NCBI GenBank assembly: GCA_018697675.1
Contig: JABINC010000002.1
Location: 1-42,481 of the forward strand
Direction of reading: 5' to 3'
DNA: 42,481 nucleotides
From: Candidatus Peregrinibacteria bacterium
GTDB taxonomy: Bacteria; Patescibacteriota; Gracilibacteria; UBA1369; JABINC01
The translations under genes and the position numbers were made by a program. The notes below the pieces were generated by a model that made no database searches, had not been told where the DNA came from, and was given only the letters and a program-made list of their open reading frames with translations. Below are positions 25,079 to 40,366 of the stretch, in pieces (the first letter of the stretch is position 1; each line of letters begins with the position of its first letter).

Positions 25079-25931
25079 CATCGACCTCACAAATATAGAG
25101 CACATACGAGCTATTCTCAAAACCCATGGAGCATACGCCAAGAAAGCTCTTGGGCAGAATTTTCTAGTAGATCGCGAAGCTCTCGACAAAATAATAGGAG
25201 CTGGAAACATTCAGATCAATGATCAAATTTTAGAAATCGGACCTGGGCTGGGAGTTTTAACTCACGAAATTCTCAAAAAAACACCAAATCTCACAAGTCT
25301 TGAAATGGATCCGCAAATGATAAAAGTCGTAGGAGCAAACATGGCGAATCTTCATACTCCAGAAGAACTATCAAACTGGCAACTCATACACACCGATGCA
25401 CTAAAATACGACATAGATGCCTCTCATTTAAAGCCCAATTACAAAATCCTCGCCAACATCCCATATTTCATCACCTCTCCTCTCCTACGGCATTTTTTAA
25501 AAGACCAGTATCTAAAAAACTCTAAAACAATTCCTTCGATAATAGTTTTCCTAATTCAAAAAGAAGTCGCAGAAAAGATAACGGATAAACGCAAAGAATC
25601 AGTAATAGGATTAAATATAAAAGTTTTCGGCGAACCAGAGATCATAAGTATGGTCCCGGCTAACTCTTTCCACCCCGCTCCAAAAGTTGACTCAGCCATC
25701 TTACGCATCACAGTTCACGACACCCCAAAAGTTGACCTCACAAAAATAGACATAAACCGCTTCTTCGAACTTATAGAACGCGGCTTCAAATCCCCCCGCA
25801 AAAAACTCCGAAACAACCTCCCAGAAGCTCTCCTGAACTCAGCCGGCATCGATCCAGACCTAAGAGCCGAAAAACTTACTATTGAGGATTGGGAGCGTCT
25901 AGCCCAAACCAAATCCGATCAAACAAAATAG
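25071..25931 (+). CDS. rsmA: 16S rRNA dimethyladenosine transferase (KsgA)
   Basis: AKKALGQNFLVDREAL; ILEIGPGLGVLT; ILANIPYFITSPL; TTG start. Confidence 0.95.
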   Translation: MTNIDLTNIEHIRAILKTHGAYAKKALGQNFLVDREALDKIIGAGNIQINDQILEIGPGLGVLTHEILKKTPNLTSLEMDPQMIKVVGANMANLHTPEELSNWQLIHTDALKYDIDASHLKPNYKILANIPYFITSPLLRHFLKDQYLKNSKTIPSIIVFLIQKEVAEKITDKRKESVIGLNIKVFGEPEIISMVPANSFHPAPKVDSAILRITVHDTPKVDLTKIDINRFFELIERGFKSPRKKLRNNLPEALLNSAGIDPDLRAEKLTIEDWERLAQTKSDQTK

Positions 25932-26670
25932 TTCGAACAAAATAGGCTATATCAGGATTTTCTATGAAAGTCGTAGTTAATCGTCCTTCGGTATAAGAAA
26001 GAAAAGCTACTGTGTTATTCCAAAGGAAAAATGCGGAACTCCATTTAACTGATCCCGACAAAAGACGAATCTCAATCTTATATTTCTTAGAATTCTCATT
26101 AACTTTCTTGGCAAATTTACAATCGGGGAAAATCAATCTCGTATTGATACCCTTGCCAGCACGTCTACCAAAATAATTTTCTAAATAATCCGAATCAACC
26201 AATTCCGCCAACATTTCAACATTAGAAAAAACTAGCATCTCACCCTTTGAACTCAAAGATTCTTCAAGCATTTTTTTGAATCCTTCCACTCCTTCATAAA
26301 ATTTCACCGAAGGCTTACCGACTTCTTCACTACGCATAGATTGCAGAAGCTTCACAGCATAATCAACATTACTTTCAATAAGAGAAATTTCGTTTTTCTT
26401 CCTCTGAATAAGCTGATAAAGCACATCTGGCTCTTCCGCTACAATTAAACGTTTTTTACCCTTTCTAGTCCCGGTTAAGAACCCTTTTTCAATCAAACTT
26501 TCAATAGCGCTATGGACCGTTACACGATTTTGTTTCAGTTTTTTAGCTATATCCTGGACTGAACAAGCTCCCATTTTGAGAGCTTGAATATAGATCTGGG
26601 TTTCACGATCCGCACATCCAAACATCTTGAACTGAACACCAATTCTATTTAAATCTGCAGAAGAAATCAT
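25879..26670 (-). CDS. TrmB-family transcriptional regulator (paralogue 1)
   Basis: N-terminal winged HTH (IQALKMGACSVQDIAKKLKQNRVTVHSAIESLIEKGFL), FYEGVEGFKKMLEE effector-domain motif; resembles 35701..36504 and 38752..39516. Confidence 0.8.
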   Translation of the reverse strand: MISSADLNRIGVQFKMFGCADRETQIYIQALKMGACSVQDIAKKLKQNRVTVHSAIESLIEKGFLTGTRKGKKRLIVAEEPDVLYQLIQRKKNEISLIESNVDYAVKLLQSMRSEEVGKPSVKFYEGVEGFKKMLEESLSSKGEMLVFSNVEMLAELVDSDYLENYFGRRAGKGINTRLIFPDCKFAKKVNENSKKYKIEIRLLSGSVKWSSAFFLWNNTVAFLSYTEGRLTTTFIENPDIAYFVRTILFDRIWFGLDAPNPQ

Positions 26671-26685
26671 AATAAATCCATAAAA

Positions 26686-26704
26686 TGTAGACCAAATTTC
26701 TACA
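26686..26704. promoter_or_regulatory. Candidate operator TGTAGA-N7-TCTACA
   Basis: Inverted repeat 4 bp downstream of minus-strand -10 TATAAT (26708-26713). Confidence 0.45.
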
Positions 26705-26841: not shown

Positions 26842-27834
26842 ATGAACTTCACACAAGACTTTCAAAAACTGCTTCTAAAGAAACCCCGCTACAACGTAAA
26901 ACAGGTTCAAGCGGAAAATTCTGAATTTGCAGACACAGCGATCAAATCCAAAAATTGCTATTACTCATTCTGCGTGTTCTACTGCGAGGACGTGTACTAC
27001 GGAAGATATTCCAGGAAATGCACAAATTGCTCTGGAATAACATTCTGCACCGAATGCCAATGGTGCATAGAATCCACAGACTGTATTAATGGATATATGC
27101 TTTCATACTGTCATCATTGCTCTAACTGTTCCGAGTGTTCATATTGCGCCGACTGCTTCGGATGCACAAACTGTTTCGGATGCATCGGACTTCACCAAAA
27201 ACAATATTATCTTTTCAATGAAAAACTTTCTAAGGAAGAATATGAGAGAAAAATCTCAGAACTCGACCTTTCCAATCCAGCGGTAATGAATATGGTCGCT
27301 CAAAAATTACAAGAAGTACAAAGCACAACGGTAAATCTCGGAATTCATCAAACAATGACAGAAAATTGCATAGGAAATAACCTCTCTGAAGCAAAAAACT
27401 GCTACCAATGTTACGACGCATTCAACTTAGAAGACTGCCTCTACAACATCGAGTGCAACGGAAACAAAGACTGCTGTGACATGACCGTATGTTTCGAAGC
27501 GGAGAACTGCTACTCATGTGTCCAAGCGCCAATCAACTACAACTGTAACTTCCTAATGCACACAGACCAATGCTCAGACAGCGAACTTTGCGCATATTCC
27601 AAAAATCTAAAAAATTGTTTCGGCTGTGTATACCTCGAAAATAAAGAATATCACATTTTAAATCAGCCATACCCCGAAGACCAATACCATGCAAAAGTTG
27701 CAGAAATCAAAAAAGAACTCCAATCAAATGGACTCTACAATATGATGATCTACTTCATATCAGATTATGAAATGCAGAGATATATGCACGAAGAAGATCA
27801 CGCAATTCAGCCGCTACTCCCAACATTAAATTAA
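26842..27834 (+). CDS. Cysteine-rich repeat (putative metal-binding solenoid) protein, two modules
   Basis: 33 Cys in 330 aa, including CHHCSNCSECSYCADCFGCTNCFGC. Two caps: NCFGCIGLHQKQYYLFNEKLSKEEYERK and NCFGCVYLENKEYHILNQPYPEDQYHAK. Confidence 0.8.
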   Translation: MNFTQDFQKLLLKKPRYNVKQVQAENSEFADTAIKSKNCYYSFCVFYCEDVYYGRYSRKCTNCSGITFCTECQWCIESTDCINGYMLSYCHHCSNCSECSYCADCFGCTNCFGCIGLHQKQYYLFNEKLSKEEYERKISELDLSNPAVMNMVAQKLQEVQSTTVNLGIHQTMTENCIGNNLSEAKNCYQCYDAFNLEDCLYNIECNGNKDCCDMTVCFEAENCYSCVQAPINYNCNFLMHTDQCSDSELCAYSKNLKNCFGCVYLENKEYHILNQPYPEDQYHAKVAEIKKELQSNGLYNMMIYFISDYEMQRYMHEEDHAIQPLLPTLN

Positions 27835-27853: not shown

Positions 27854-28132
27854 ATGACTACTGAAAAAACAATTCTAAAGTGTAAAAATCCACATTGTGA
27901 AAAAGATTTTCACGTAATCCCACAAGAAGCAGATCTCTATAAGAGAAAAAATCTTCCAAGCCCAGACTTCTGCCCAGAATGCCGACACCGACAAAGAATG
28001 GCACTTCGAAACGAAAGAAAATTATACGGTCGCCCATGCGGCAAATGTCAAAAACAGATGCTTTCAACCTATCCGGAAACGGCACCCTACACAGTTTACT
28101 GCCAAGAATGTTTCTGGGCAAATATAGGCTAG
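27854..28132 (+). CDS. Small zinc-ribbon protein (zf-trcl-like)
   Basis: CKNPHC...FCPECRHRQRMALRNERKLYGRPCGKCQKQ...YCQEC; matches the N-terminus of 33989..35506. Confidence 0.75.
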   Translation: MTTEKTILKCKNPHCEKDFHVIPQEADLYKRKNLPSPDFCPECRHRQRMALRNERKLYGRPCGKCQKQMLSTYPETAPYTVYCQECFWANIG

Positions 28133-31803: not shown

Positions 31804-33999
31804 ATGAATAAATCAAATAATAAACGGGCTCCACTTAACGACGCTATTAAAAAAGATGATCTGGAACTCGTTGAAAAGCTCCTCAAAACAAAAATCAACC
31901 TAAATCGGATTCCCGCAGGACAAAATAGCACTCCACTTACATTAGCATGTTATTATAAAAACAATGAAATTGCCAAGGCTCTCATCAAAGCAGGAGCAGA
32001 CGTTAATAAAAAAGATAAAAAAGGCGACACTCCAATAAAATTAGCCTGTGACGCCTATGAAGACGATTCGAAAAAAATCGCAGAACTCACAAAACTCCTT
32101 TTAGAAAATGGAGCAGATCCAAATATATTCAAAAGGGATACCGATGGACCGATAAACTCCGCGGCAATGTATGGGCACCTAGAAGCTGTTAAGCTATTGA
32201 TAAAACACAAAGCGAACATAGATAAAAAAGGGAACTATGGGCGGACAGCCTTAATGTACGCTGCTTCTTGTTCACGTTCAATTAAAATAGTGAAAGCCCT
32301 ACTCAAATCTGGTGCCGACGTAAATATAGAAAATGAGGGCGAAGAAAATGCTCTTTTTGAAGTAATAACAAATGAAAAATCTAATGTGGAAATCGCAAAA
32401 TTACTCATCTCAGCCGGAACAAAAATTAACAGAGGAAATCATTATCATGGGAGCGCTCTACATTGGGCGGCTTTTTGCGGCAGAACAAATATCGTAAAAC
32501 TTTTATTAGAGAATGGTGCTGATATAAACAAAAATCACAAAAATAGCGGCCTCCCTATCAGTGAAGCTATGAGCCAAGGATGTACAAAAATTGTAAAAAT
32601 ACTTTTTGATCACTGGATAAATAGCAATTCAAAACAAGATCTTCTCGATAGTGGCATTTTAGAATATGCAGTCGAGAAAAAAGACATGGTATTCACAAAA
32701 AAAATAATTGCAGAAGCAAAAAAACGTAAAAAGAAACTTCCTGGAGATGCTCTCGTAGAAGCGGCCAGAACCGGAGACCTGGAACTGACAAAACTTCTCA
32801 TCGCAGCAGGTTTAAGCCCCGAAGAAGGACAATACTCAGAAACCCCACTGATGAAAGCGGCCTACTATGGGAGACTCAGCATAGTAAAATATCTTTTAGA
32901 TAACGGTGCCAACCTTGCAGCTAAAGATTGTCGAGGCAATACCGCCCTACTTCATGCGGCATGGTCTGGACGCACCAACGTTGTCCGCGAACTTCTAAAA
33001 CAAGGTGCGAAAATCAACGAAAAAAATAATTTAAACTGGAATGCGCTGATGCAAGCATGTATTGAAAAACATATCAAAACAGCAGAATTTCTTCTCAAAA
33101 AAGGCTCACCAACCGATGAAATAGACAAAGAAAAAGGTGTAACAGCTCTTACTCTTGCTAAACATTCAGGTTCTAAAGAACTTATCGACTTACTCATTTC
33201 CCATGGAGCCACTGAGCGCAAAATAAAACAAAGAAAAAAGGGAGAGGAATATTTTTCAATTTTTGATTGTGAAATATGCTCATATCTACCTCACAAAAAA
33301 GATCTCTGGAGAACTCTGCAAGTCGAAGAATTCAAAGGGCTAGAAAGCATATATACAGAACACTTGCAACCAGACAGACACACGGAAGTTTCGAATATGA
33401 TAAAAAAATGTACAAATTGTGGTACATATTATCATCAATATTATTCAGTAGATGATGAAGACGCATTCATAGCAGGACCTTCAATAAGTCATAATTTTCG
33501 AAGATTAAACTTAGAAGAGTTGAAAGTCACATTAAGAAAAATTAAAAAAACAGAAGAATTAAATGAATTCAAAAAAAGATATCCATCAATAATTAAAGAT
33601 CTTGAATCAAAACTTAAGAAAGGAGAAACTATCTCAAAAAACTTACTACTTCACGTTATAGAGTCCCTCACGGATTATTATATTACGAAAGAAAACTGGG
33701 AAGATTTAGAAAAATATTTACTTCAAAATTCTAACCCAGAAATAGCATTACAAACAGCGAGAGATCTCTGCCTCATATATGGCGTACAATATTATGACCA
33801 TAGAATGCCCTATTATACAGAGTACCGAGATTGCACAACGGGAATGCAGAAAAAAGCCAAACCTTTTATAAAAAAACACAATAAAAATATTTTACAAAGC
33901 ATTAACAAATTCAAAGACGATAAGAATCCACAAGTTAAGTTAAAATACGACGATGCAATAAACTCAATGAAGTATTATAAATTGAAACCTAGTAAATAA
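31804..33999 (+). CDS. Ankyrin-repeat protein with C-terminal Cys4 zinc-binding segment
   Basis: Many ankyrin repeats (e.g. TALMYAASCSRSIKIVKALLKSGADVN; SALHWAAFCGRTNIVKLLLENGADIN), then CEIC...CTNC. Confidence 0.9.
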   Translation: MNKSNNKRAPLNDAIKKDDLELVEKLLKTKINLNRIPAGQNSTPLTLACYYKNNEIAKALIKAGADVNKKDKKGDTPIKLACDAYEDDSKKIAELTKLLLENGADPNIFKRDTDGPINSAAMYGHLEAVKLLIKHKANIDKKGNYGRTALMYAASCSRSIKIVKALLKSGADVNIENEGEENALFEVITNEKSNVEIAKLLISAGTKINRGNHYHGSALHWAAFCGRTNIVKLLLENGADINKNHKNSGLPISEAMSQGCTKIVKILFDHWINSNSKQDLLDSGILEYAVEKKDMVFTKKIIAEAKKRKKKLPGDALVEAARTGDLELTKLLIAAGLSPEEGQYSETPLMKAAYYGRLSIVKYLLDNGANLAAKDCRGNTALLHAAWSGRTNVVRELLKQGAKINEKNNLNWNALMQACIEKHIKTAEFLLKKGSPTDEIDKEKGVTALTLAKHSGSKELIDLLISHGATERKIKQRKKGEEYFSIFDCEICSYLPHKKDLWRTLQVEEFKGLESIYTEHLQPDRHTEVSNMIKKCTNCGTYYHQYYSVDDEDAFIAGPSISHNFRRLNLEELKVTLRKIKKTEELNEFKKRYPSIIKDLESKLKKGETISKNLLLHVIESLTDYYITKENWEDLEKYLLQNSNPEIALQTARDLCLIYGVQYYDHRMPYYTEYRDCTTGMQKKAKPFIKKHNKNILQSINKFKDDKNPQVKLKYDDAINSMKYYKLKPSK

Positions 34000-35506
34000 A
34001 AGGAACAAGCTCATTTCTTTTCAAATATCGAGCTTCAAAACTCATGCGTGGTACTGCAACACCAATCTTTTTGTAAAAATCCAGTTCGCGTTTTTGAAAT
34101 CTAAAAGGCCTACCTTGAACCGGACACATATACACCTTACTTTCTAAATCCGCCCCTACTTCTGAAATCAAATCAGGAATAATTTCAACAGATTCACCAA
34201 CCCCAATTTCATCCGCCAAAACCGAAGAAGACGCCAAAGGAAAATAATCATTCGCCAAAGTGTCTTCGTATGGAAACATTGAAAATTTCTGAGGGAAGAA
34301 TTCTCCATATTCACCATTTTCTCTCATACATTCAACTATTCGATCAACAAGCTCAAAATACTCCTGTTCGGAGTATGGTTTATTAAAAATACAAAACTTT
34401 CCATCTTTCAAACCTATACATCCAAAACAATTTTCACAGCCCCAACAGTTATCACAATACTGTAAAAAGCTCGAACGCATACAATAATTACAATATTTCA
34501 AATCATAACAATGCGCGATAGTCACACAGTCAACACAGAGCTCCGTCTCCATTCCATAAGCATAGAAATCATACGAATCTTTCACGTCCCTAGAATTCAA
34601 AATATAACGACAATCCTGCAATTCAGTTACATTGCACGCATCAAATGCATTCCGGCTATTATAAATAGAATCCCCCGTGCAATTTTCAGAATTCAAAATA
34701 ATATGACGGATCCGCGGCCACTCTTTGCTCCACTCATCCCAACTTTTTTTCAAATGCTCAAGCACACCATTCGAATCAACTCGGTACTCCTTCAACTTCT
34801 GCTCATACTCCTCACGAGTTAATTGTTGGTTAAAAAAACAATATTCCTTCCGCTCAAGCCCATAACAAAACATCGAATTTTTTACTCCACGACAATTCCG
34901 AAGAAAAATCGAATCTGTACAGTTATCACAGTCATCCGAAAACTTCACATTGTAACAATTTTTAACATTCACGCATTCATAGCAAAGTTCCGAATGCAGA
35001 ATATTTGTACAGTCCACACAATCCGTGCACTTATCCGCAAATCGACAATACATACAATCCTCATCATCCTCAGAATTGAAAATAAAATAACAATTTCGAC
35101 AAAACCCACAATGATTTGAATATTCGGAATTCTCTTCATTCCCAGCACTAGCTTTATGCATTCGCGGAGCAATTTTCCATAAATCATAAAGTTGATCAAA
35201 AAACGACCTATCAAAATCATAGCTCTCGAGATATGGGGTCTCGAAATCTTGGCTGTGCCATTCATCCACATGATAAACCGGATACGGAACATCCGGCCGA
35301 ACATTCGAAATTATAGTTTCACCACTTAAATCAGATATGCGTTTATGAAGTTTTCTCTCGTTGCGAAAACTAAGCCTCCGCTTAAGTCTATCTTTCGGGC
35401 AAAGAGTCGGAAGAGGTACATTCCTTTTTTCGTAGTATGCCTGATCCTGATCATCGATTTGAAAATCTCCCGAACAGACTCTGCATTTTTTTGTGATAGT
35501 GGTCAT
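33989..35506 (-). CDS. Fusion of zf-trcl-like zinc ribbon and two-module Cys-rich repeat protein
   Basis: N-terminus CRVC...LCPKDRLKRRLSFRNERKL; then 30+ Cys in repeats; caps CYGLERKEYCFFNQQLTREEYEQK and NCFGCIGLKDGKFCIFNKPYSEQEYFE. Confidence 0.85.
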   Translation of the reverse strand: MTTITKKCRVCSGDFQIDDQDQAYYEKRNVPLPTLCPKDRLKRRLSFRNERKLHKRISDLSGETIISNVRPDVPYPVYHVDEWHSQDFETPYLESYDFDRSFFDQLYDLWKIAPRMHKASAGNEENSEYSNHCGFCRNCYFIFNSEDDEDCMYCRFADKCTDCVDCTNILHSELCYECVNVKNCYNVKFSDDCDNCTDSIFLRNCRGVKNSMFCYGLERKEYCFFNQQLTREEYEQKLKEYRVDSNGVLEHLKKSWDEWSKEWPRIRHIILNSENCTGDSIYNSRNAFDACNVTELQDCRYILNSRDVKDSYDFYAYGMETELCVDCVTIAHCYDLKYCNYCMRSSFLQYCDNCWGCENCFGCIGLKDGKFCIFNKPYSEQEYFELVDRIVECMRENGEYGEFFPQKFSMFPYEDTLANDYFPLASSSVLADEIGVGESVEIIPDLISEVGADLESKVYMCPVQGRPFRFQKRELDFYKKIGVAVPRMSFEARYLKRNELVPFIY

Positions 35507-35700: not shown

Positions 35701-36504
35701 ATGATAGACAAACTTCAAAAATTAGGATTTACAGAAAAAGAAGCGGCCATATATTTGACAACTTTGGAGCTCGGATCAGGCTCTGCAGTATCCACGATTT
35801 CCAAAAAATCTGGAATCACCAGAACCACCACATATGACATTTTAGAATCCCTTCTCAAAAAAGGAATCATCACCAAGCATGAAAAAAAAGAACAGCTCTA
35901 TTTCGAAGCCAGACCTCCAGAACAACTCATGACATACCTCGAAGAGGAAAAGAAAAAGATCGAAGACAAAATGACAGAAGTAGAAGGCCTGCTTCCAGAA
36001 TTAAAAATCCATCACAGAGCTCTGGAAGGTCGCCCAAGAGTATATTTTTACGAAGGATTTGAAGGACTTATCCGAGTGTACGAAGAAACCCTAACCTCCT
36101 CTGAAGAGATCCTTGCATATGCATCCGACCAAGCAAATCAAGATGCCGTCCCAGCTTATTTTCCGAAATATTATAAGCGCAGAGCCGCAAAAAAGATCCC
36201 AATTCGAGCGATATTCCCAGATACCCCCTGCGACCGAGAGAGACATTCCCTAGATAAGCAAGAACTTCGCCGGAGCCGTATTGTACCGCAGGAAAATCTC
36301 GACTTCACACCAGAAATTAATTTTTTCGACAACAAAATGATGATCGCAGATTGGAAAGAAAAACTCGGAATCATCATCGAGTCACAGGAAATCGTAAATG
36401 TATTCAAACAAACATTCGAACTAGCTTGGGAAGCAGCCGAAAAATATCACAAGAAACTTGGGCTAAAAGATACCGCGCCGCAAACAAGAAAACAAAAGCG
36501 CTAG
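35701..36504 (+). CDS. TrmB-family transcriptional regulator (paralogue 2)
   Basis: MIDKLQKLGFTEKEAAIYLTTLELGSGSAVSTISKKSGITRTTTYDILESLLKKGII; FYEGFEGLIRVYEE. Confidence 0.9.
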   Translation: MIDKLQKLGFTEKEAAIYLTTLELGSGSAVSTISKKSGITRTTTYDILESLLKKGIITKHEKKEQLYFEARPPEQLMTYLEEEKKKIEDKMTEVEGLLPELKIHHRALEGRPRVYFYEGFEGLIRVYEETLTSSEEILAYASDQANQDAVPAYFPKYYKRRAAKKIPIRAIFPDTPCDRERHSLDKQELRRSRIVPQENLDFTPEINFFDNKMMIADWKEKLGIIIESQEIVNVFKQTFELAWEAAEKYHKKLGLKDTAPQTRKQKR

Positions 36505-38751: not shown

Positions 38752-39516
38752 CTACTTCATATTATCTGGATTTTCCCAGGCTAAACGGTAAATAGTTTTC
38801 ATCGTATCTGCAAACTCCTTATTTTGAATCAGAATTGCAAATGCATCCTGATATAGATTCAAAAGGAGTACTTTGTCATCAAATACATCGATAGAGGAAA
38901 AAAACTCCCCTTTCTTCTTTGGGAACATGCAAGTGCGACGACAATGCTTTTTATTTTTTTTCTTATACTTTTTATGAGTTTCATTCTCCGGGCAAATCGC
39001 ATCTAAATGCAATTTTCTCTTTGAGCGTTCATCAATAAAATCATTCATAAATTTTTCCCCCATTTTCGTTAAATCATCATGAGCCGCAAATTCCAACACA
39101 TCTGTTTTTGAATCAAGAACGGTTAGGTAGGCTTTTTTACAACCATCAACGCCTTCAAAAAAAGTTACCTTAGGAGGAGAAGTATACGGATTTTTACATT
39201 CTTTTAAGAGTGGAATTATTTTTTCCAGAGCCTCTTGCCCAGATTTGAGCTCTTTTTCCTTAGCTTGCTCAAGATCTCCTGGTTCCGCATAAAAATACTG
39301 TGTGCGTCCTTTTTGAGATCTACGCAAATAGCCTTTTTTCACAAGATTATCACAAAGAAAATGTATCGTCGCCTTCGGAAATCCAGTTTTTTTGGCCAAC
39401 ACCGAAGCTGGCTGCATACCAATTTCAAGCAACACCAAATACAACTTTGCCTCCTTTTCTGTAAAACCCAATTCTAATAAATATTCCTCCATAAGATCGT
39501 CAGTAATTGTTGACAC
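38752..39516 (-). CDS. TrmB-family transcriptional regulator (paralogue 3)
   Basis: LLELGFTEKEAKLYLVLLEIGMQPASVLAKKTGFPKATIHFLCDNLVKKGYL; FFEGVDGCKKAY; GTG start. Confidence 0.88.
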   Translation of the reverse strand: MSTITDDLMEEYLLELGFTEKEAKLYLVLLEIGMQPASVLAKKTGFPKATIHFLCDNLVKKGYLRRSQKGRTQYFYAEPGDLEQAKEKELKSGQEALEKIIPLLKECKNPYTSPPKVTFFEGVDGCKKAYLTVLDSKTDVLEFAAHDDLTKMGEKFMNDFIDERSKRKLHLDAICPENETHKKYKKKNKKHCRRTCMFPKKKGEFFSSIDVFDDKVLLLNLYQDAFAILIQNKEFADTMKTIYRLAWENPDNMK

Positions 39517-39622: not shown

Positions 39623-40366
39623 ATGGAAACAACAAAGCTCACATACCTTGAAAACCAAAACTTATACAAATCAGAAGCGAAAATCACCGATACTCAAAGC
39701 ACTGAAGATAATCGAATTGCAATCATTCTAGATCAAACTATTTTTTACCCTCAAGGTGGTGGCCAACCATACGATCAAGGAACAATTTCTCTAGATTCAA
39801 CCCTATTTGAAGTACAAGAAGTGCGATTCAAAGACGGAATTGTTTATCACATCGGAGAATATTTAGAAGGACAATTTAATATTGGGAACACAGTTCAATG
39901 CGAAGTTAACAAAGAACGTAGAGCGTTAAATTCACGCCTGCACTCAGCTGGACATCTTATCGGTCATATAATGCAAAAACTCGCACCACAATTCAACCCA
40001 ACCAAAGGACACCATTTTCCTGGAGAGTGCTATGTCGCATACGAAGGTAAAATCCCCGAGGAAGAGCGCGAACCATTCAAACAAAAAATCGAAAACGCCG
40101 TTAATGAAGCCATCTCACAAGATGTACCTATAGAAATACGCTCTGCCGATTACAATGAATTGAGAGAGTTATGCGATATGATTCCACTTTATGTACCAAA
40201 AGATAAGCCATGTAGAATTATGTCAATTTTGTTTTCCGACGGAGCGAAAACTATGCCATGTGGCGGCACCCATGTAGCTAGCATGGGAGAATTAAAAAAT
40301 ATTCATATTAAAAAATGTAGTTCGAAAAAAGGCGTAATTAAGCTAAGCTATGAATGCGAAATCTAA
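39623..40366 (+). CDS. alaX: Alanyl-tRNA editing protein AlaX
   Basis: RLHSAGHLIGHIMQK (HxxxH) and MPCGGTHV motifs. Confidence 0.88.
   Translation: METTKLTYLENQNLYKSEAKITDTQSTEDNRIAIILDQTIFYPQGGGQPYDQGTISLDSTLFEVQEVRFKDGIVYHIGEYLEGQFNIGNTVQCEVNKERRALNSRLHSAGHLIGHIMQKLAPQFNPTKGHHFPGECYVAYEGKIPEEEREPFKQKIENAVNEAISQDVPIEIRSADYNELRELCDMIPLYVPKDKPCRIMSILFSDGAKTMPCGGTHVASMGELKNIHIKKCSSKKGVIKLSYECEI

Follow-up and report, generated by a model that had tools for sequence, protein, structure and literature searches.

Cysteine-rich proteins of Patescibacteria are predicted to contain 12-residue β-solenoids and, in some copies, are paired with divergent TrmB-type regulators

RESULTS

Two cysteine-rich genes lie beside divergent TrmB-type regulators

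The window is the whole stretch of DNA analysed, 42,481 nucleotides of contig JABINC010000002.1 from a Candidatus Peregrinibacteria bacterium, and our study covered the portion from about 19 to 42 kb. Two cysteine-rich proteins of 330 and 505 amino acids are encoded there, in the reading frames named by the original prediction, which had been made from the sequence alone (Table 1). The 330-aa protein carries neither of the zinc ribbons found elsewhere in its family. Instead, a 92-aa double zinc ribbon is encoded by an open reading frame that starts 19 bp downstream. This C-terminal zinc module with a gene of its own was overlooked in the original prediction, as were the zinc-finger sites at both ends of the family.

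Two further gene pairs were observed in the same portion of the window. A 731-aa ankyrin-repeat protein (31804-33999, + strand) is convergent with the 505-aa gene and overlaps it by a few bases. A third TrmB-type regulator (38752-39516, - strand) is divergent from an AlaX-like protein (39623-40366, + strand), which consists of the C-terminal part of alanyl-tRNA synthetase and a SAD domain.

Table 1. Coordinates of the two cysteine-rich loci and their features in the window
Feature	Coordinates	Strand	Basis
TrmB-type winged-helix regulator, divergent from the 330-aa gene, 171-bp gap	25879..26670	-	PF01978, E=1.2e-6
Palindrome TGTAGA-N7-TCTACA, candidate operator	26686..26704	.	9 of 15 exact N6/7 copies at TrmB/solenoid junctions
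330-aa solenoid-only member (two Cys modules, no zinc ribbon)	26842..27834	+	ORF; homologous to residues 113-402 of the 505-aa protein; AlphaFold
330-aa protein, module 1 (about residues 25-120; eight 12-residue coils)	26914..27201	+	Alignment columns 121-216
330-aa protein, module 2 (about residues 174-265)	27361..27636	+	Alignment columns 270-362
92-aa double zinc ribbon, detached C-terminal domain (Cys 10/15/40/43 and 62/65/83/86)	27854..28132	+	Family zinc-ribbon match
505-aa member with two solenoid modules; 3 Cys remain in its N-terminal zinc-finger region, and its C-terminal ribbon is eroded	33989..35506	-	ORF, alignment, AlphaFold
505-aa protein, module 2 (about residues 274-366)	34409..34687	-	Alignment, AlphaFold
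505-aa protein, module 1 (about residues 125-220)	34847..35134	-	Alignment, AlphaFold
Divergent TrmB-type regulator, separated from the 505-aa gene by 194 bp	35701..36504	+	PF01978, E=2.4e-15

Cysteines are spaced in multiples of three

Both proteins had been predicted to space their cysteines in multiples of three, and the intervals are indeed as listed in that prediction. Among Cys-Cys intervals of 20 residues or fewer, 26 of 31 in the 330-aa protein and 27 of 28 in the 505-aa protein are multiples of three. Random placement of the cysteines (20,000 placements for each protein) yielded about 28-29% multiples of three, and none of the 20,000 equalled the value of either protein. The preference extends to the 188 distinct homologues, in which 4,701 of 5,662 intervals (83%) are multiples of three, with a median per protein of 84% and a minimum of 65%. 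In module 1, which aligns without gaps across these homologues, cysteine occupies 41.6% of in-phase positions and 0.52% of out-of-phase positions.

The exceptions can be placed. The interval of 11 in the 330-aa protein falls at the KNC-after-ENC coil of module 2; in the consensus of the family, this coil (columns 270 to 281) likewise spans 11 residues. The CC pair reflects a single additional cysteine at the +1 position. The initial intervals of 3 and 25 in the 505-aa protein are part of a zinc-finger site. The run of nine cysteines in CxxC spacing, noted previously in the 330-aa protein, occupies residues 90-114; orthologues keep the cysteine phase and not the exact nine-cysteine form. We rejected tandem expansion at the DNA level as the source of this run, since no DNA tandem repeat was found.

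The cysteine modules are predicted to form a 12-residue solenoid

AlphaFold models the 505-aa protein (pLDDT of 88.4, pTM of 0.88) as a solenoid with a β-bridge at about every third residue. For the 330-aa protein, the overall pLDDT was 75.8, with values mostly of 80-94 in module 1 and about 66-90 in module 2, and a β-bridge is formed at every third residue (Cys+1) throughout the CxxC run. Coevolution across the 188 sequences, computed by mean-field DCA, was strongest at a separation of 12 residues in both module 1 (z of 4.4) and module 2 (z of 4.0). When either module is written out with 12 residues to a row, its first five coils read E-N-C, K-N-C, E-D-C, K-D-C, and E-L-C, so that Glu and Lys form a ladder (E-K-E-K-E) alternating at steps of about 12 residues. 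The presence of the same ladder in both modules indicates that they are duplicates. Module 1 is length-locked, with no deletions and almost no insertions among the 188 homologues; in module 2, one step spans 11 residues and another spans 13 columns.

The residues found at cysteine positions when cysteine is absent are Ser (31-38%), followed by Leu, Val, Asn, Thr, Ile, and Ala, with Glu, Lys, and Arg each at 0.2% or less. Because the replacing residues are almost never charged, the cysteines would point into the core rather than line one face. The original prediction had placed them on one face of a solenoid; this part was not supported, as cysteine occurs at all four inward positions of the 12-residue coil and its small or hydrophobic replacements follow a core pattern. 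The residue preceding cysteine is mostly Asp, Asn, or Gly, as expected of tight turns. The lock on three is explained by the coil itself, which has four inward positions that hold all in-phase cysteines.

Collectively, the AlphaFold models and, independently, the coevolution signal strongly support a β-solenoid fold with a 12-residue coil in the two cysteine modules. That the cysteine positions are inward in character is likewise strongly supported; the direction of the side chains and the handedness of the coil are inferred. Foldseek searches of PDB and BFVD returned no match at E≤1e-3, only generic β-helices (TM of about 0.1) and short zinc-ribbon pieces, and the only PDB entries recovered by sequence were LIM-type zinc fingers, weakly similar to the C-terminal ribbon.

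The family is concentrated in Patescibacteria

Full-length members are about 560 aa long and consist of an N-terminal zinc-finger region, module 1, a cap (...K.Y.IFN...S.EEYE), module 2, a second cap (FGC.GL..K.YCILNKQYS.EEY), a linker, and a C-terminal zinc ribbon. In the architecture that we propose, the two solenoid modules would have arisen by internal duplication, would be capped by short helices, and would be flanked by zinc ribbons. No Pfam or NCBIfam model covers the solenoid, PADLOC gave no match, and we found no earlier description of the family in the literature searched, although one may exist elsewhere.

The 1.46-Mb genome to which the window belongs carries 18 full-length copies, of which ten form a single array on contig C38, in addition to the 330-aa gene. 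This array (L025 and L026) is broken by genes for a sodium:solute symporter, a Fic-domain protein, and a DUF3147 membrane protein, and a Mur-ligase-like protein is encoded at its end (L026). Across a set of relatives, the family was detected in 44 of 59 genomes, with matches per genome reaching at least 24. Among 380 genomes drawn evenly over the phylum, 32 carry it, mostly from the window's own class, and named relatives belong overwhelmingly to Peribacteria, Peregrinibacteria, and other Patescibacteria. Family members also occur on contigs labelled Nitrospirota (L063) and Micrarchaeota (L074). L063 shows the usual array together with the usual order of the ATPase described below, which makes it likely that these contigs are mis-binned Patescibacteria DNA.

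In the 330-aa protein, residues 33-115 match the phage family PHROG 15341 (E=1.2e-10). A tblastn search of phages and plasmids with the 505-aa protein gave no match, and the 330-aa protein gave four marginal phage matches. Weak tblastn matches of the 330-aa protein (E of about 3e-3) were to hypothetical proteins of Campylobacter phages CP20 and CPt10 and Flavobacterium phage FL-1. These are in line with PHROG 15341, and a phage version of the cysteine module may exist.

Zinc is most likely bound at the ends and not in the solenoid

Among the 188 homologues, the zinc-finger cysteines at the protein ends are kept or lost as sets, with phi values of 0.63-1.0 within each site. Such all-or-none co-occurrence is the signature of a metal site. 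The two CxxC knuckles of the treble-clef zinc finger behave in this manner (phi of 0.63-1.0), and when seven full-length copies were scanned with the treble-clef models PF13451/PF23477, one exceeded the cut-off (L006, 24.6 versus 24 bits) and others scored weakly. The zinc ribbons are basic. The solenoid modules are acidic, with a net charge of about -5 to -6 per module.

In contrast to the zinc-finger cysteines, those of the solenoid are gained and lost nearly independently. The mean phi in module 1 was +0.05 at a separation of 3 residues, -0.12 at 6, and +0.14 at 12, and the pattern in module 2 was similar. These values are consistent with stacking of like with like between coils and avoidance across the core, rather than disulfides across the core or metal rings of four cysteines. 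Therefore, the solenoid cysteines are most likely free thiols that serve mainly as stackable core residues, and zinc is most likely held at the ends.

Could the stacked cysteines instead line a tube with thiols for the storage or conduction of metal (Cu, Zn, or Fe), so that the solenoid would parallel the copper-storage and metallothionein proteins? Module 1 has up to 20 cysteines, which in some runs occupy every inward position. Between orthologues of about 70% identity, moreover, 88% of solenoid cysteines are kept compared with 65% of other inward residues, and most replacements are Ser; this higher conservation may reflect more than packing. However, the near independence of these cysteines differs from the behavior of the zinc-finger sets, Ser is the main substitute in the family with His and Asp rare, and certain members have just 6 cysteines in module 1. 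We therefore consider a metal tube unlikely.

A secreted β-helix stabilized by disulfides, as in the beetle antifreeze proteins, would share the 12-residue coil with every third position inward (PMC8038014). This reading is very hard to sustain, because the proteins lack a signal peptide, cysteines at the beetle disulfide spacing of 6 are anticorrelated (down to -0.56), and the terminal zinc fingers point to a reducing compartment. A string of independent CxxC zinc fingers along the whole protein, suggested by the CxxC motifs and the genuine zinc ribbons at the ends, is already largely refuted and close to untenable, as profile searches found no zinc-finger match within the modules, AlphaFold models them as regular solenoid, and they contain no all-or-none cysteine sets. 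The original prediction of a solenoid in place of zinc fingers is supported for the two cysteine modules by the models and by the coevolution peak at 12; real zinc-finger sites are present at the protein ends.

TrmB-type regulators and a palindrome mark a subset of solenoid genes

Both regulators beside the window's solenoid genes match the TrmB winged-helix domain (PF01978, cut-off of 25.6 bits). The one upstream of the 330-aa gene scored 28.7 and 30.9 bits in two scans and the one upstream of the 505-aa gene scored 59.2 bits. The match is confined to the N-terminal domain, and the sugar-binding C-terminal domain was not matched in Pfam for either protein. Of 11 TrmB matches in this genome, four are encoded divergently upstream of solenoid genes, namely, the two in the window and two in the C38 array. 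Across homologue loci, 14 of 26 divergent upstream neighbors are of the TrmB type.

The cassette consisting of the TrmB gene (- strand), the 330-aa solenoid gene (+ strand), and the 92-aa ribbon gene (+ strand) occurs in the same order in four genomes (G000, G001, G036, and G016), with identities of 55-65% for the solenoid and 57-74% for the ribbon. Conservation of the split pair in four genomes indicates a fixed arrangement rather than decay, and we rejected a pseudogene or frameshift as the origin of the 330- and 92-aa pair on this ground.

The window's own genome contains two exact copies of TGTAGA-N5-8-TCTACA, both at TrmB/solenoid junctions. Across the 59 genomes, nine of 15 exact copies with an N6/7 spacer lie at such junctions, of which four are the cassettes that supplied the motif and a fifth was seen simultaneously, leaving the other four, together with four named loci that likewise have the palindrome at the TrmB/solenoid junction, as independent occurrences. 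The remaining six copies have neither gene nearby, and a control search with the reversed pattern gave six matches in the 59 genomes, equal to this off-junction number. The palindrome is absent from the 505-aa junction, and a single operator common to both window cassettes was therefore rejected. These data strongly support the divergent pairing with TrmB-type regulators and the common palindrome. We propose that the adjacent regulator would switch some solenoid copies by acting at the palindrome, a candidate operator.

One solenoid face differs between paralogues and is maintained between orthologues

The two sides of module 1 differ in conservation. Coil positions 1-5 form a conserved side, with entropies of 0.7-1.9 bits in coils 1-4; the outward positions 7, 8, 10, and 11 form a variable side, averaging 2.7-3.6 bits and abundant in Asn, Tyr, Phe, His, Trp, and Gly. 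The orthologues compared (five pairs from two genomes of one genus) were 72.5% identical at 16 variable outward positions, against 69.6% over all columns, and paralogues were 16.9% identical there, against 39.2% over all columns. A face on which paralogues diverge and orthologues agree is a signature of specificity, and not of drift or an arms race. Judged from sequence comparison, the existence of such a face appears strongly supported.

No signal peptide or other classical export signal was found in the family, and a strongly hydrophobic 19-residue segment is present in three of the 188 proteins and in none from the window's own genome. The two modules and their flanking ribbons would make up an acidic rod that binds zinc at its basic ends and lacks a signal peptide. 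Taken together, surfaces particular to each copy, the lack of an export signal, the acidic rods, and the basic zinc ends suggest cytosolic recognition scaffolds, in which each paralogue may present its own surface to its own partner.

Two other roles were weighed against this one. In 15 loci, one of them the C38 array (L026:9083-11431), family genes adjoin a same-strand gene for a T4SS-coupling/HerA-like ATPase of roughly 490-790 aa, which lies before, after, or inside the solenoid arrays. The solenoid proteins could be substrates that this adjacent VirD4/HerA-like ATPase delivers to other cells, and the absence of a classical export signal would fit such substrates. We judge delivery improbable, however, given that most family loci lack the ATPase, only one of the three such ATPases in the window's own genome lies beside an array, neither window copy has one nearby, and the enzyme may be a DNA translocase.

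Alternatively, the acidic solenoids could be nucleic-acid mimics that serve as antirepressors or inhibit DNA-binding proteins, an activity reported for certain pentapeptide-repeat proteins. The charge difference between modules and ribbons, together with the location of the genes beside DNA-binding regulators, is compatible with such a role. The charge is moderate, however, the most conserved face alternates Glu and Lys, and the variable face is rich in Asn and aromatic residues instead of acidic ones, making mimicry a poorer candidate still than delivery.

DISCUSSION

Our preferred reading, which we regard as probable though well short of secure, is that these proteins are solenoids with 12-residue coils and a thiol core that would act as cytosolic recognition rods, some copies of which would be switched by TrmB-type regulators. 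A broader and more tentative reading, possible but in our view not the likelier outcome, is that a group of ultra-small bacteria maintains up to about two dozen intracellular solenoid receptors in genomes of 1-1.5 Mb, each with a thiol core and a face that is specific to the paralogue and conserved between orthologues, and several with a dedicated TrmB-type regulator and operator. If true, this receptor repertoire would represent a previously undescribed recognition system of the bacterial cytosol.

A family that reaches at least 24 copies in a reduced genome must repay its cost, and this one has neither a Pfam or NCBIfam model nor a solved relative. It would also place a β-solenoid with three residues per step in a bacterial cytosol that is probably reducing. 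To our knowledge, solenoids of this kind are otherwise known only from insect antifreeze proteins. The regulator and operator pair, together with the map of surface positions that distinguish paralogues, turns the recognition target into a question for the bench.

Comparison with known systems

PHROG 15341, a phage family of 276 positions with unknown function, has only the cysteine module in common with the present family. The large extracellular cysteine-rich proteins of Candidatus Peribacter (PMC4736985) come from related bacteria and are likewise encoded by clustered cysteine-rich genes, but they average about 1,655 aa and mostly have predicted signal peptides, whereas the present family averages about 560 aa and has none; no description of it was found in the main text of that paper. 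The Knotted Solenoid proteins of Brevundimonas and relatives are also β-solenoids with conserved core cysteines, and their crystal structures have no disulfides (PMC13123833). They differ in their Phe/Cys pattern, in being dimeric, and in belonging to other bacteria, and no relation to the present family was seen by sequence or fold search.

Pentapeptide-repeat proteins (PF00805; PMC8145042) similarly repeat a short peptide four-fold per coil with inward-pointing residues, but with five residues per step and 20 per coil in place of three and 12, and the family had no Pfam match to these repeats. Hexapeptide repeats of the left-handed β-helix also had no Pfam match, and Foldseek matches to LpxD/GlmU were at E≥0.0048 with a TM of about 0.1.

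A parallel in coil geometry is TmAFP, the Tenebrio-type hyperactive antifreeze protein (PDB 1EZG), with a 12-residue coil arranged out-in-out-out-in and inward residues C2, S5, C8, and A11 (PMC8038014). TmAFP is a secreted insect protein with a TCTxSxNCxxAx consensus, disulfides between cysteines 6 apart, and an ice-binding Thr face (PMC8038014). Neither this consensus nor the Thr ranks were found in the present family, whose consensus rows instead read [EK]-[ND]-C-Y-..., and no cysteine-pair signature is seen there at a separation of 6, where cysteines are anticorrelated. The present proteins are bacterial, lack a signal peptide, carry terminal zinc ribbons, and are about 560 aa long. What they have in common with TmAFP is the 12-residue coil, seen as the coevolution peak in both modules, with every third position inward and cysteines spaced in multiples of three.
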